From Bacteroidota bacterium (GTDB taxonomy: Bacteria > Bacteroidota > Bacteroidia > NS11-12g > UBA955), in NCBI GenBank assembly GCA_963169345.1, contig CAUJCT010000018.1, positions 1 to 64,000 on the forward strand: a DNA stretch of 64,000 nt, written 5' to 3'. Under the pieces are notes generated by a model. It searched no databases, was not told the DNA's origin, and saw only the letters and a list, made by a program, of their open reading frames with translations. The position numbers and the translations under genes are program-made. Of this stretch, positions 6,453 through 10,562 are shown piece after piece (position 1 is the stretch's first letter; the number at the start of each line of letters is the position of its first letter).

Positions 6453-6992
6453 TTATTCGTCATCGGGAGTAGCATCACCAGGTGGCGGCGGCGGTGGCCC
6501 CTGCTTTTTATGCTCCTTGGCTCTTTGCATAACTTCCTTTTTAAACTCTCGCTCTACCAATGGTAACATAGCTACTTTCTTTACAGGGATGACCTTCTTG
6601 AACTTCTCTACATACTCCTTGTATAAAGCTGTCTGATCTTCTCTTAGCTTTATCGATGCATTTAAAAACTCTTCTGCTTTTTTGTCATCCATAAATACTA
6701 CATCGTTCGGTTTGTACTTGGCATGAAAACTATCCCTCAGAGCTTTTTCTTTTTTCTTATACTCATCGTATAAAGGCCAAAATGCTTTTTGCTCTGTTTC
6801 CGTTAAAGCCAGTTTTTCATTGTAGAACTTCTTCCTCAACTCTTCAATTTTTTCTTTCTTTGGTTTGTCCTTTTTTCCTTTGCCTTGTTGGCCTGGACCT
6901 TGGGCTTTCAGACCAGTTAAACTGATCATTACCCCCAGAGCAAGTGCTAATAGCCCTTTACCCATTTTTCCGATTTTTACGTTCGCTAACAT
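6453..6992 (-). CDS. Spy/CpxP-like periplasmic protein, last gene of ECF sigma operon
   Basis: 179 residues with a signal peptide (hydrophobic segment LLALALGVMISLTGLKAQG). The mature part is Lys/Glu-rich and helical: EKIEELRKKFYNEKLALTET, then EQKAFWPLYDEYKKKEKALRDSF, resembling the LTxxQ helical repeats of Spy/CpxP periplasmic chaperone-like proteins. The tail is GPPPPPPGDATPDDE. Genes of this type commonly end Bacteroidota ECF sigma operons and are sometimes described as sensors of the sigma factor. It lies 26 bp after the anti-sigma-like gene and just before a strong terminator. Its role in envelope stress is inferred from context. Confidence 0.7.
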   Translation of the reverse strand: MLANVKIGKMGKGLLALALGVMISLTGLKAQGPGQQGKGKKDKPKKEKIEELRKKFYNEKLALTETEQKAFWPLYDEYKKKEKALRDSFHAKYKPNDVVFMDDKKAEEFLNASIKLREDQTALYKEYVEKFKKVIPVKKVAMLPLVEREFKKEVMQRAKEHKKQGPPPPPPGDATPDDE

Positions 6993-7018: not shown

Positions 7019-7459
7019 TTATATTTCTATTTCATCATCCAGAATACTGTACTCTTCTTCCAGATCTTCCAGGTCTTCTTTGCTAATAAAATTATCGATA
7101 TACTGTGATTGAATTTTTTCCGTATACAATGAATCAATTACTTCATCCTGTACATACGTTTCAAATTCTTCGTCATCAAACTCAACACTGTTTTCAAATT
7201 GTACAATATCCATTGAGTCTAAATCATTAAAACTGATTTCGTTTTCGTCTTTAGCACTTCTTATACTGAATATTGTTATCATGACGACGATTGCAACTGA
7301 TGCAGCAATTGATACAATTTTACCCCAATAAACTACTTTTGCTTTGCCCGCACTTGACTCTTCTTTCAAACGATTTAAAACATTTGTTTCAAGTTGTTCA
7401 AAATAGCCTTCAGGTATTGTCCAGCCTTCTTGTTTGTATTTTGGATCTAATGATTCCAT
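7019..7459 (-). CDS. Membrane-anchored anti-sigma factor-like protein
   Basis: 146 residues. The N-terminal cytosolic segment, about 45 residues, contains GWTIPEGYFEQLETNVLNRL, a motif common in Bacteroidota anti-sigma-like proteins behind ECF sigma genes. One transmembrane helix follows (VVYWGKIVSIAASVAIVVMI, about residues 42-64), then a very acidic periplasmic tail rich in Asp and Glu. It lies 38 bp downstream of the sigma gene and 26 bp upstream of the Spy-like gene. It has no zinc-binding HxxxCxxC anti-sigma motif, so the call rests on position, topology and the EGYFEQLE motif. Confidence 0.7.
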   Translation of the reverse strand: MESLDPKYKQEGWTIPEGYFEQLETNVLNRLKEESSAGKAKVVYWGKIVSIAASVAIVVMITIFSIRSAKDENEISFNDLDSMDIVQFENSVEFDDEEFETYVQDEVIDSLYTEKIQSQYIDNFISKEDLEDLEEEYSILDDEIEI

Positions 7460-7497: not shown

Positions 7498-8058
7498 TTA
7501 ATGGATGTCTAAAAAATGCTTAATTTTTTCAACTGCGTGATGAAAACTGGCTTTTAAAGCGCCTTCACTTGTTCCGGTAATTTCACTGATTTCTTTATAC
7601 GGCATGTCTTCAAAGTATTTATAATTAAAAACCAGTCTTTGTTTTTCCGGTAACTCTAATAATGCCTCTTGCAACTTTCTGAATATTTTGTCTCCATTCA
7701 TGCCGTCTCCCTGATGTATAAACTGTTTCATAATGCCTTCCTGATCCATAATGTCATCTAATGAGGTGAATTTTCTCTTCTTTTTTAATATGTTTAAACT
7801 CTCGTTATAGGCTATCCTGTAAATAAAACTGCTTAAAGCCGAATCAAATCTGAAATTGTCTGCAAATCTCCACAACCTGATAAATACATTTTGTACCACT
7901 TCATCGGTGTCCTCATGCACTATCACTATTCTTCGAACCTGCCAATACACCTTTTGTTTGTATCTGTTCATTATCTCCCTGAAATAAATTTCTTCTTTGC
8001 CTTTGTCAACAAAGTTTTTCATTAATTCGTGGTCGCTTAACTGTTTTATCGGACTCAA
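7498..8058 (-). CDS. ECF-type RNA polymerase sigma-70 factor
   Basis: 186 residues with both conserved sigma regions: region 2 around residues 25-92 (DTDEVVQNVFIRLWRFADNF, then LSSFIYRIAYNESLNILKKK) and region 4 around residues 125-182 (LPEKQRLVFNYKYFEDMPYK, EISEITGTSEGALKASFHHA). The start is a TTG at 8058; the first ATG would remove conserved N-terminal residues. The start codon lies only 23 bp from the start of the divergent gene at 8082, so their promoters must overlap. It heads the operon with the anti-sigma-like and Spy-like genes and presumably responds to an envelope signal. Confidence 0.92.
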   Translation of the reverse strand: MSPIKQLSDHELMKNFVDKGKEEIYFREIMNRYKQKVYWQVRRIVIVHEDTDEVVQNVFIRLWRFADNFRFDSALSSFIYRIAYNESLNILKKKRKFTSLDDIMDQEGIMKQFIHQGDGMNGDKIFRKLQEALLELPEKQRLVFNYKYFEDMPYKEISEITGTSEGALKASFHHAVEKIKHFLDIH

Positions 8059-8081: not shown

Positions 8082-8621
8082 TTGAAAAAGTTTAATCACA
8101 TTTATAAATTTATTTTATTTGTTTCATTTTTTTTGATTGCCTGCGTGCATCAACCATCTTCTGAAACAATAAATGGAACGGATGTCAACCTCTATTCTGG
8201 TCACAAAGTTTTGATCTTTGCAAATGCCGAATGTCCTATATGTAAAAAATATGCAGGTTCATTCAAATCTATGTTGCAAGAAGGAATTCCTCTTTATTTT
8301 GTCTTTCCGGGTGAACAAAGTATTGCCGGCATTCGCGAACTAACTGCTTATGATTCTATTCCTGATGCTAATGTGATAATAGATGAATCTTACGAAATCA
8401 CCAGGTACCTCGATGCTAAAGTCACTCCTCAGGTGATTATTCTTGTGGATGGTGTTGAACGCTATTCGGGCAAAATTGACAACAGATTCGAAAATCTTGG
8501 TAGTTCTAAACCTAAAGCAACTATTGATTATATCAGGAATGCATTAAATTCGCTGAATAAAAATGAAATCCTTGAAGAACCATCCAATAAGCCGGTGGGC
8601 TGCCTTATTGAGCCTAGGTAG
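8082..8621 (+). CDS. Thioredoxin-like (redoxin) lipoprotein
   Basis: 179 residues from a TTG start that gives a textbook lipoprotein signal: MKKFNHIYKF, a hydrophobic stretch, and lipobox LIAC with Cys21. The thioredoxin-type redox motif CPIC (Cys51, Cys54) follows a KVLIFANAE beta strand, and VTPQVIILVDG contains the expected cis-Pro loop around residues 120-128. It is a membrane-anchored periplasmic thiol-redox protein. Its 3' end overlaps the cytochrome/copper monooxygenase gene by 59 bp, which ties the two functionally. In several other bacteria I recall redoxin, heme and copper monooxygenase modules being fused in one polypeptide; here they are separate lipoproteins. Confidence 0.8.
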   Translation: MKKFNHIYKFILFVSFFLIACVHQPSSETINGTDVNLYSGHKVLIFANAECPICKKYAGSFKSMLQEGIPLYFVFPGEQSIAGIRELTAYDSIPDANVIIDESYEITRYLDAKVTPQVIILVDGVERYSGKIDNRFENLGSSKPKATIDYIRNALNSLNKNEILEEPSNKPVGCLIEPR

Positions 8622-9927
8622 CTTTTTCTCTGCTTGTTCTTCTGACTCTCCTGATTTTGCTAAAGATATCGCACCTATCGTTTATCAGAATTGTAGTCCT
8701 TGCCATCGACCAAATGGTGGAGCTCCATTCAGCCTGCTTTCCTATAAAGATGTTGCTAAAAGAGCTAAAATGATTGCTCTAGTTACCAGAAAAAAATACA
8801 TGCCCCCATGGCCGGCCGACAGAAATTACTCGCACTTTCTGAATGAAAGAACCCTTAGCGACCATCAAATTGATTTGTTTCAGAAATGGTACAAAAATGG
8901 CTGCTTGCCTGGTGATACTTCGAAACTTAAGCTACCAACAACTTTATTTACTTCTTCTGTTCTTGGTAAACCCGATTTGATAGTGCCTGTTGAACCGGTT
9001 AAAATTATAAATAATAATAAAGATAAATTTTATGTTCTGAAAATTCCCTGCAAAATCGATTCATGGAAACCTGTTAGAGCAGTTGAGTTTATTCCGGGTC
9101 AACCGGATTATGCGCATCACGTTAACGGTCACTACCTCTTAATGGATGATAAAACAGATCCTTTTGCCGGTAATCGTTTAGTCGATATTGAATCCCCTGA
9201 TTACGATTCTCAGTTTAAATCGCTGCTGCTCGATAACAGCAATGGCTCTATGCCCGAACGTGTACACTCTGCATTTAATTATTTGCCGGGTGCCTTTGGT
9301 GTCAGATATCCTGAAGGTATTGGTGGTTTTATGATGAGTCCAAATGGTGTCTTTGTCGCTAATGATATTCATTATGGACCATCATTAAAGAACGTTATCG
9401 ATAGTTCAAAACTCTATATCTACTTCGCAAAACAACCACTCAAAAGACCATGTTTCGAAGTGATGATGGGAACTAATGGTGTTGCACCAATTGTGCCTCC
9501 TCTTCAAATACCGGCAGGGAAAATCACAAAACATGTCTCTCAAATGACTATTTACAACGATATTTCTATCCTTACTGTCAATCCTCACATGCACTTAATT
9601 GGTAAAAGTTTTAAAGCTTTTGCAGTTAAACCAAATGGAGATACTGTTAACTTGATTCATATCCCTGTCTGGCAGTTTAGATGGCAATATTTCTATACAT
9701 TTACGCATCCTGTCAGAGTGCCTAAAGGCTCCACCATCTTCGTGGAAGCTTTGTTTGATAATACTTCCAATAACCCCAATAACCCTTATGATCCTCCTCA
9801 GACAATTGGTGAAAGATTGGATAGGGAAGGAGCCAGTATGAGAACCACGGATGAAATGCTCCAGTTTATTATTACTTATATGCCTTATCAAAAAGGTGAT
9901 GAATCTATAGACCTGTCTAAACCATGA
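8563..9927 (+). CDS. Cytochrome c-copper type II monooxygenase (PHM-like) lipoprotein
   Basis: 454 residues with a lipoprotein signal (LLSLGSFFSAC, Cys25). A heme c site, NCSPCH (Cys44, Cys47, His48), lies in a short cytochrome-like domain with MPPWPAD. The rest matches copper type II ascorbate-dependent monooxygenases: HH pair His185-His186 (DYAHHVNGHYLL), His270 (ANDIHYGPS) as third CuH ligand, His342 and His344 (NPHMHLIGKSF) and Met432 (TTDEMLQFIITYM) as CuM ligands. All six copper ligands of peptidylglycine hydroxylating monooxygenase have a counterpart. It would act in the periplasm; the substrate is unknown. The start overlaps the upstream gene by 59 bp in another frame; the intact signal peptide argues against a sequencing frameshift. 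The stop overlaps the next gene by 4 bp. Confidence 0.85.
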   Translation: MKSLKNHPISRWAALLSLGSFFSACSSDSPDFAKDIAPIVYQNCSPCHRPNGGAPFSLLSYKDVAKRAKMIALVTRKKYMPPWPADRNYSHFLNERTLSDHQIDLFQKWYKNGCLPGDTSKLKLPTTLFTSSVLGKPDLIVPVEPVKIINNNKDKFYVLKIPCKIDSWKPVRAVEFIPGQPDYAHHVNGHYLLMDDKTDPFAGNRLVDIESPDYDSQFKSLLLDNSNGSMPERVHSAFNYLPGAFGVRYPEGIGGFMMSPNGVFVANDIHYGPSLKNVIDSSKLYIYFAKQPLKRPCFEVMMGTNGVAPIVPPLQIPAGKITKHVSQMTIYNDISILTVNPHMHLIGKSFKAFAVKPNGDTVNLIHIPVWQFRWQYFYTFTHPVRVPKGSTIFVEALFDNTSNNPNNPYDPPQTIGERLDREGASMRTTDEMLQFIITYMPYQKGDESIDLSKP

Positions 9928-10562
9928 AAAACCTGAGACCTCTTTTTGTTTTTTTTATAATTCTATTAACCCTAACCCTTACTCTGGTTTATGGTATGCC
10001 ATACATCAGAGGCAAAAAAGGCCCGGTAAATCCTGAAGATCGCAAAATCGGAATAGACAAAGTTGAAGAAAATTATGGTAATGCAATAGATAGTGCTGCG
10101 GCTGTATTTAATATTAACCCAAAATTCCTGAAAGCTTTGTGCATGCTCGAATGCGGTGGAAGGAAAGTCTTCGATCAAAGATTCGAACCTCATGTCTACA
10201 GAAAATTAAAATCTGTAAAGTTCAATGTGCTTTCTAATTACGAACATGTTACACCTGATATGTTGCGCGATGCTAACGATGAAGCACTAAGAAATCTCGC
10301 CAGTAGCTGGGGACCATTTCAGTTGATGGGATACAAATGTTTGTTACTTGGAATTAAAGTCAGAGATATCAGAGGACCTCAATCTGTTTATTACGGCGTT
10401 AAATGGATTGACATGACCTATGGCGATTACCTTAAAAAAGGCTTGTACGAAGATGCCTTTCATATTCATAATACAGGTATGCCCTTGCCCGCCAATTCAG
10501 TTCCTAAAACCTACGATCCTGATTATATTAACCATGGATTGTCTTATATGAAAAAATTCTGA
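9924..10562 (+). CDS. Lysozyme/N-acetylmuramidase-like envelope protein
   Basis: 212 residues with an N-terminal signal or anchor helix (LFVFFIILLTLTLTLVYG). The core, roughly residues 45-205, contains FLKALCMLECGGRKVFDQRF (Glu76, a candidate catalytic acid), RFEPHVYRK and SSWGPFQLMG. Together these resemble lysozyme-fold peptidoglycan hydrolases of the N-acetylmuramidase/SLT type. The ATG overlaps the stop of the copper monooxygenase gene (ATGA), so it is the third gene of a translationally coupled operon. Its role beside a redox lipoprotein pair is not obvious; local cell-wall remodelling is a guess. Confidence 0.65.
   Translation: MKNLRPLFVFFIILLTLTLTLVYGMPYIRGKKGPVNPEDRKIGIDKVEENYGNAIDSAAAVFNINPKFLKALCMLECGGRKVFDQRFEPHVYRKLKSVKFNVLSNYEHVTPDMLRDANDEALRNLASSWGPFQLMGYKCLLLGIKVRDIRGPQSVYYGVKWIDMTYGDYLKKGLYEDAFHIHNTGMPLPANSVPKTYDPDYINHGLSYMKKF

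Follow-up and report, generated by a model that had tools for sequence, protein, structure and literature searches.

The copper type II monooxygenases PHM (peptidylglycine hydroxylating monooxygenase) and DBH (dopamine beta-hydroxylase) are known as eukaryotic, ascorbate-driven hormone and neurotransmitter enzymes, and in both of them the methionine at the CuM site tunes the O2 chemistry. Electron supply from a heme domain to a copper oxygenase is established for another pair of proteins, in which the heme domain of cellobiose dehydrogenase (CDH) feeds electrons to a lytic polysaccharide monooxygenase (LPMO). PHM has been described as widespread in eukaryotes (PMC8812541). Its CuH site is formed by H107, H108, and H172 (PMC6123673), and the DBH ligands are His262, His263, and His333 together with His412, His414, and Met487, with the roles of the two coppers also given (PMC4846438). 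For bacterial proteins that match the Pfam models Cu2_monooxygen and Cu2_monoox_C, assignment to the superfamily is already implicit in these public domain models. No NCBIfam family names the protein described here, the matches shown for sampled family members being accessory repeats and tails, and in the open-access literature that we searched we found no characterised bacterial member with a fused heme domain, although subscription papers could differ.

We analysed a window of 64,000 nt from a Bacteroidota bacterium (assembly GCA_963169345.1, contig CAUJCT010000018.1, positions 1 to 64,000). A sequence-only reading of this stretch had assigned one gene to a lipid-anchored protein that combines a CxxCH heme site with six copper ligands. 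H185, H186, H270, H342, H344, and M432 were found in this reading frame as stated, the heme motif lies on the same chain at residues 44-48, and a lipobox-like cysteine, C25, is present and kept in 41 of 47 orthologs (Table 1). About 110 N-terminal residues past the lipobox carry the CxxCH motif, and the C-terminus follows directly after the copper core. The protein is the only member of its family in the window's genome. The partner gene, the axial methionine, and the loss of the PHM peptide-binding residues, all described below, are additions to that first reading.

Table 1. Features of the monooxygenase locus, in positions of the 64,000-nt window
Feature	Position	Strand	Basis or remark
LTXXQ-like envelope protein	6453-6992	-	divergent beside the redoxin/monooxygenase pair
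Likely anti-sigma protein	7019-7459	-	divergent beside the redoxin/monooxygenase pair
ECF sigma factor	7498-8058	-	divergent beside the redoxin/monooxygenase pair
Thioredoxin/redoxin-fold lipoprotein partner, 179 aa, with C51-P-x-C54 and C-terminal G-C174-x-I-E	8082..8621	+	fold, conservation
Partner CPxC motif (C51 to C54)	8232-8243	+	
Partner C174	8601-8603	+	
Overlap of 59 nt between the 3' end of the partner gene and the start of the monooxygenase gene	8563..8621	+	offset kept in related loci
Cytochrome c - copper type II monooxygenase lipoprotein (predicted), 454 aa, ATG start	8563..9927	+	conservation, fold, profile
Signal peptide up to and including lipobox Cys C25	8563..8637	+	sequence
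Heme c attachment motif C44-S-P-C47-H48 (CxxCH)	8692..8706	+	invariant in alignment
M80 of MPPW, candidate axial heme ligand	8800..8802	+	invariant in alignment
Double jelly-roll copper core, residues about 135-443	8965..9891	+	range aligned to PHM/DBH
Predicted CuH ligands H185, H186 (PHM H107, H108)	9115..9120	+	conservation, profile alignment
Predicted CuH ligand H270 (PHM H172)	9370..9372	+	conservation, profile alignment
Predicted CuM ligands H342, H344 (PHM H242, H244)	9586..9594	+	conservation, profile alignment; within PF03712 match
Predicted CuM ligand M432 (PHM M314)	9856..9858	+	conservation, profile alignment
Envelope protein, 212 aa, very weak N-acetylmuramidase-like match	9924..10562	+	4-nt overlap with monooxygenase stop

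Pfam alone was equivocal for this protein: PF03712 (Cu2_monoox_C) scored 22.1 bits, or 23.5 bits in a genome scan, against a cut-off of 23, and PF01082 (Cu2_monooxygen) gave no match. We therefore collected relatives. They came from 55 of the 59 related genomes, from 21 of the 296 that sampled the phylum, and from 12 of the 60 that sampled the phylum of the acidobacterial genome; 11 loci were taken from named genomes, one of them an Acidobacteriia MAG. In an alignment of 35 members from Bacteroidota and Acidobacteria, of which 24 match PF03712 and nine match PF01082 (with the two models, members reach E values of 1.2e-9 and 3.5e-8), the mean column identity is 22% and 22 columns are invariant. 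All ten predicted metal ligands (C44, C47, H48, and M80 for the heme; H185, H186, H270, H342, H344, and M432 for copper) are among these 22 columns, and all ten are present in 47 of 47 closer orthologs. In naive counts that ignore phylogeny, ten randomly drawn positions would all be invariant with P about 7e-15, and a draw restricted by residue type (6 of 14 His, 2 of 14 Met, and 2 of 6 Cys) gives P about 2e-7. Conservation of the predicted ligands in this family is thus above chance. The only invariant cysteines are the heme pair.

An AlphaFold2 model built from 11 sequences (mean pLDDT 76.6, pTM 0.71) retrieved rat PHM as the top Foldseek match in the PDB (E 4.6e-14, probability 1.00), and human DBH was matched with E 6.9e-11. 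VIA-align 2 gave Z 16.9 for DBH (rmsd 3.6, 283 residues aligned) and Z 16.8 for PHM (rmsd 3.2, 254 residues aligned), and the nearest unrelated chain reached Z 7.3. Matches to viral capsid proteins and PNGase F at Z about 7 were set aside as reflecting the shared double jelly-roll fold only (PMC8812541). At the sequence level, neither single-sequence phmmer nor an 11-sequence profile reached PHM in the PDB; the 35-sequence family profile did so with E 4.6e-10 (DBH, E 2.2e-9), so that failure of the single query is no evidence against homology. In this profile alignment the family motifs HH, iHY, HmHllGK, and dEM pair with VHHM, VHY, HTHHLGK, and DEM of PHM, which places the six ligands opposite H107/H108, H172, H242/H244, and M314. 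The proposed mapping onto PHM therefore holds residue by residue, and the predicted fold, best matched by PHM and DBH, does not contradict the reading of two copper sites.

As judged from model and alignment, the protein shares with PHM a putative double jelly-roll core, a CuH site of two adjacent histidines and a third, a CuM site of HxH and methionine, and the HH, HY, HxHxxGK, and DEM motifs. Unlike PHM, it is a bacterial lipoprotein with an N-terminal heme c domain, and the peptide-carboxylate residues are replaced. DBH (PDB 4zel) has the same copper core and ligand set and likewise carries an extra domain before the core. However, that domain is a heme-less DOMON, whereas the window protein has a CxxCH cytochrome c, gave no DOMON match in a domain profile search, and lacks both the dimerization domain and the conserved disulfides of DBH. 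The LPMO/CDH system resembles it in having a heme domain that supplies electrons to a copper oxygenase, but there the copper is mononuclear, the b-type heme resides on a separate protein, and the catalytic fold is unrelated.

For the heme domain, Cytochrome_CBB3 scored 18 bits on the window protein against a cut-off of 27, and 20 of the 35 family members match a profile of this type at E 0.01 or better. The hallmarks of class I cytochromes c, CxxCH and a distal methionine, are invariant in the alignment (C44, C47, H48, and M80), which makes M80 a candidate axial ligand; the heme-Met loop, residues 80-95, has pLDDT <50 in the model. Genes for cytochrome c assembly (PF01578) and for SCO1 are present in the genome. 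A PF03712 search of 58 related genomes returned about 80 matches, and all but one coincide with frames of the heme-fused family, the exception being a weak match in a frame of 184 aa. No PF03712 domain was found in 14 well-known control genomes. This near-total co-occurrence of heme and copper domains in related genomes strengthens the case for the proposed electron route from heme to copper.

The gene directly upstream encodes a lipoprotein with a thioredoxin fold and a catalytic Cys-Pro, and Foldseek matched its model to the redoxin-like structures 2cvb (E 1.7e-8), 2ywi, and 3u5r. 2ywi aligns over the whole partner domain and has the C-terminal GC-x-I motif in common with it; these solved proteins are titled hypothetical, uncharacterised, or thioredoxin-like, whereas the partner is a lipoprotein with a CPxC motif. 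Such a redoxin gene lies upstream on the same strand in 41 of the 47 orthologs, within 200 nt in 34 of them. The overlap with the monooxygenase gene is exactly 59 nt in the window and in eight related loci, and two more have offsets of -53 and -56. We rejected an artefactual monooxygenase start codon as its source, because the signal peptide is located inside the overlap and the -59 offset is kept in related loci. Among the six orthologs without the partner, L084, L087, and L088 have little upstream sequence, and L039, L051, and L053 apparently lack it locally despite ample flanking sequence. A redoxin homologue also adjoins the monooxygenase elsewhere in the phylum and at one acidobacterial locus, being downstream in three cases, and no fusion of the two in one frame occurs in the fetched loci. 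Within the fetched flanks of the divergent copies the partner was found in 0 of 24. Heme and copper ligands are retained where the partner is missing, which makes a general role in heme attachment unlikely for it; we prefer a copper/thiol or peroxide function tied to the clade. Across 39 partner relatives, C51 and P52 are invariant, C174 is kept in 38, and C54 in 30, the remaining nine having Ser or Ala instead. The frequent replacement of C54 and the retention of C174 suggest that the working pair may be C51-C174 and not the CxxC motif.

In a FastTree phylogeny, one clade comprises all 47 orthologs and phylum-wide members, often with a redoxin partner, and a second clade comprises the class-2 and acidobacterial copies (support for the separation 0.995-0.996). 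Class-2 copies (L076, L091, L141, L147, and similar) have about 100 extra C-terminal residues, and a T9SS sorting domain is present in 6 of the 35 sampled members. On this basis, export of the class-2/acidobacterial branch to or past the cell surface is probable. TPR repeats are likewise present in 6 of the 35. Two genomes of the acidobacterial phylum (G354 and G365) harbour many family copies each, as a lineage-specific expansion.

Around the gene pair, conservation is more local. The envelope protein gene that overlaps the monooxygenase stop codon belongs to a cluster present in 11 loci, mainly within the genus, and is probably on the same transcript. The divergent arrangement of sigma factor, anti-sigma, and LTXXQ-like genes is kept in several members of the genus, hinting at shared envelope-stress regulation with the redoxin/monooxygenase pair. 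Four loci (L050, L053, L055, and L058) have two conserved genes (clusters 19 and 14) on the opposite strand directly upstream of the monooxygenase gene, and in three of these loci the two genes separate it from the redoxin gene; the cluster 14 gene looks acyltransferase-like by eye.

The putative substrate pocket differs from that of PHM. In structures of PHM with bound peptide, R240, N316, and Y318 hold the peptide carboxylate. Their counterparts here are N340 (45 of 47 orthologs), Q434 (47 of 47), and I436 (47 of 47). In the divergent class-2 copies, positions 268 and 436 are mostly Q and Y, which is closer to PHM Q170 and Y318. The consistency of N340, Q434, and I436 across the orthologs suggests a remodelled pocket and a specific substrate other than that of PHM. 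As read from these residues, the substrate is probably not a peptidylglycine of the PHM type, and we rejected PHM-type peptide amidation as unlikely on the same grounds.

Sequence and predicted structure support the earlier interpretation as far as they reach. Taken together, we consider it rather probable that the locus encodes an ascorbate-independent, heme-wired copper monooxygenase lipoprotein with a dedicated redoxin partner. The protein would sit in the cell envelope as a lipoprotein, with a c-type heme domain at its N-terminus joined in one chain to the copper type II monooxygenase core. A quinol or cytochrome donor of the respiratory chain would reduce the covalent heme, which would take the place of ascorbate and pass electrons to CuH (H185, H186, and H270) and from there to CuM (H342, H344, and M432). 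At CuM, O2 would be activated and one of its oxygen atoms inserted into a C-H bond of a small substrate located in the envelope or outside the cell. The redoxin partner, with C51, C174, and usually C54, would most likely handle Cu(I) or thiols for the copper site, or else dispose of peroxide produced by uncoupled turnover.

The assignment of the heme as electron donor has a competitor in which the copper monooxygenase is retained but the heme domain serves only in docking or sensing, electrons coming from the redoxin partner or a soluble reductant, or H2O2 driving the enzyme as a peroxygenase. The tight coupling of the redoxin gene to the orthologs is in its favour, as is the low-confidence heme-Met loop, which leaves the heme-copper distance unfixed in the model. 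We nevertheless regard it as unlikely, since the heme ligands, with M80 among them, vary no more than those of copper, and divergent copies that lack the redoxin keep the heme, which fits a general electron input better.

A further reading dispenses with oxygenase activity and sees a lipoprotein for copper/heme electron transfer, copper storage, or copper sensing on a PHM scaffold. In its favour are the finding that, besides the redoxin, no substrate or metabolic gene neighbourhood is conserved, and the ECF sigma factor and LTXXQ-like protein as divergent neighbours in several genus members. However, both copper sites, including the CuM methionine, are intact over two phyla, and storage or sensing would not require two asymmetric sites; we hold this to be quite unlikely. 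Finally, PHM being the nearest solved fold could point to peptide amidation by a bacterial peptidylglycine hydroxylase. This is very improbable given the replacement of the peptide-carboxylate residues, with Q434 and I436 invariant and N340 nearly so. No PAL-like lyase domain was found in the 454-aa chain.

For the heme-wired monooxygenase that we favour, a broader proposal is that it represents a separate, ascorbate-free bacterial branch of the PHM/DBH superfamily: self-sufficient in electron flow from heme c to CuH and CuM, fed by the respiratory chain, anchored in the envelope, paired with a redoxin of its own, active on a substrate yet to be discovered, and multiplied into many paralogs in Acidobacteria. 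Arguments for and against this fuller picture seem to us evenly balanced. If it is true, the bacterial heme-fused branch would be a second way to feed electrons to the PHM/DBH copper core, and long-range electron transfer from CuH to CuM would become directly testable, since reduction of CuH could be read optically from the heme built into the enzyme. It would also point to an envelope oxidation in most relatives of this organism, expanded in some Acidobacteria, and suggests that bacteria run PHM/DBH chemistry without vitamin C.
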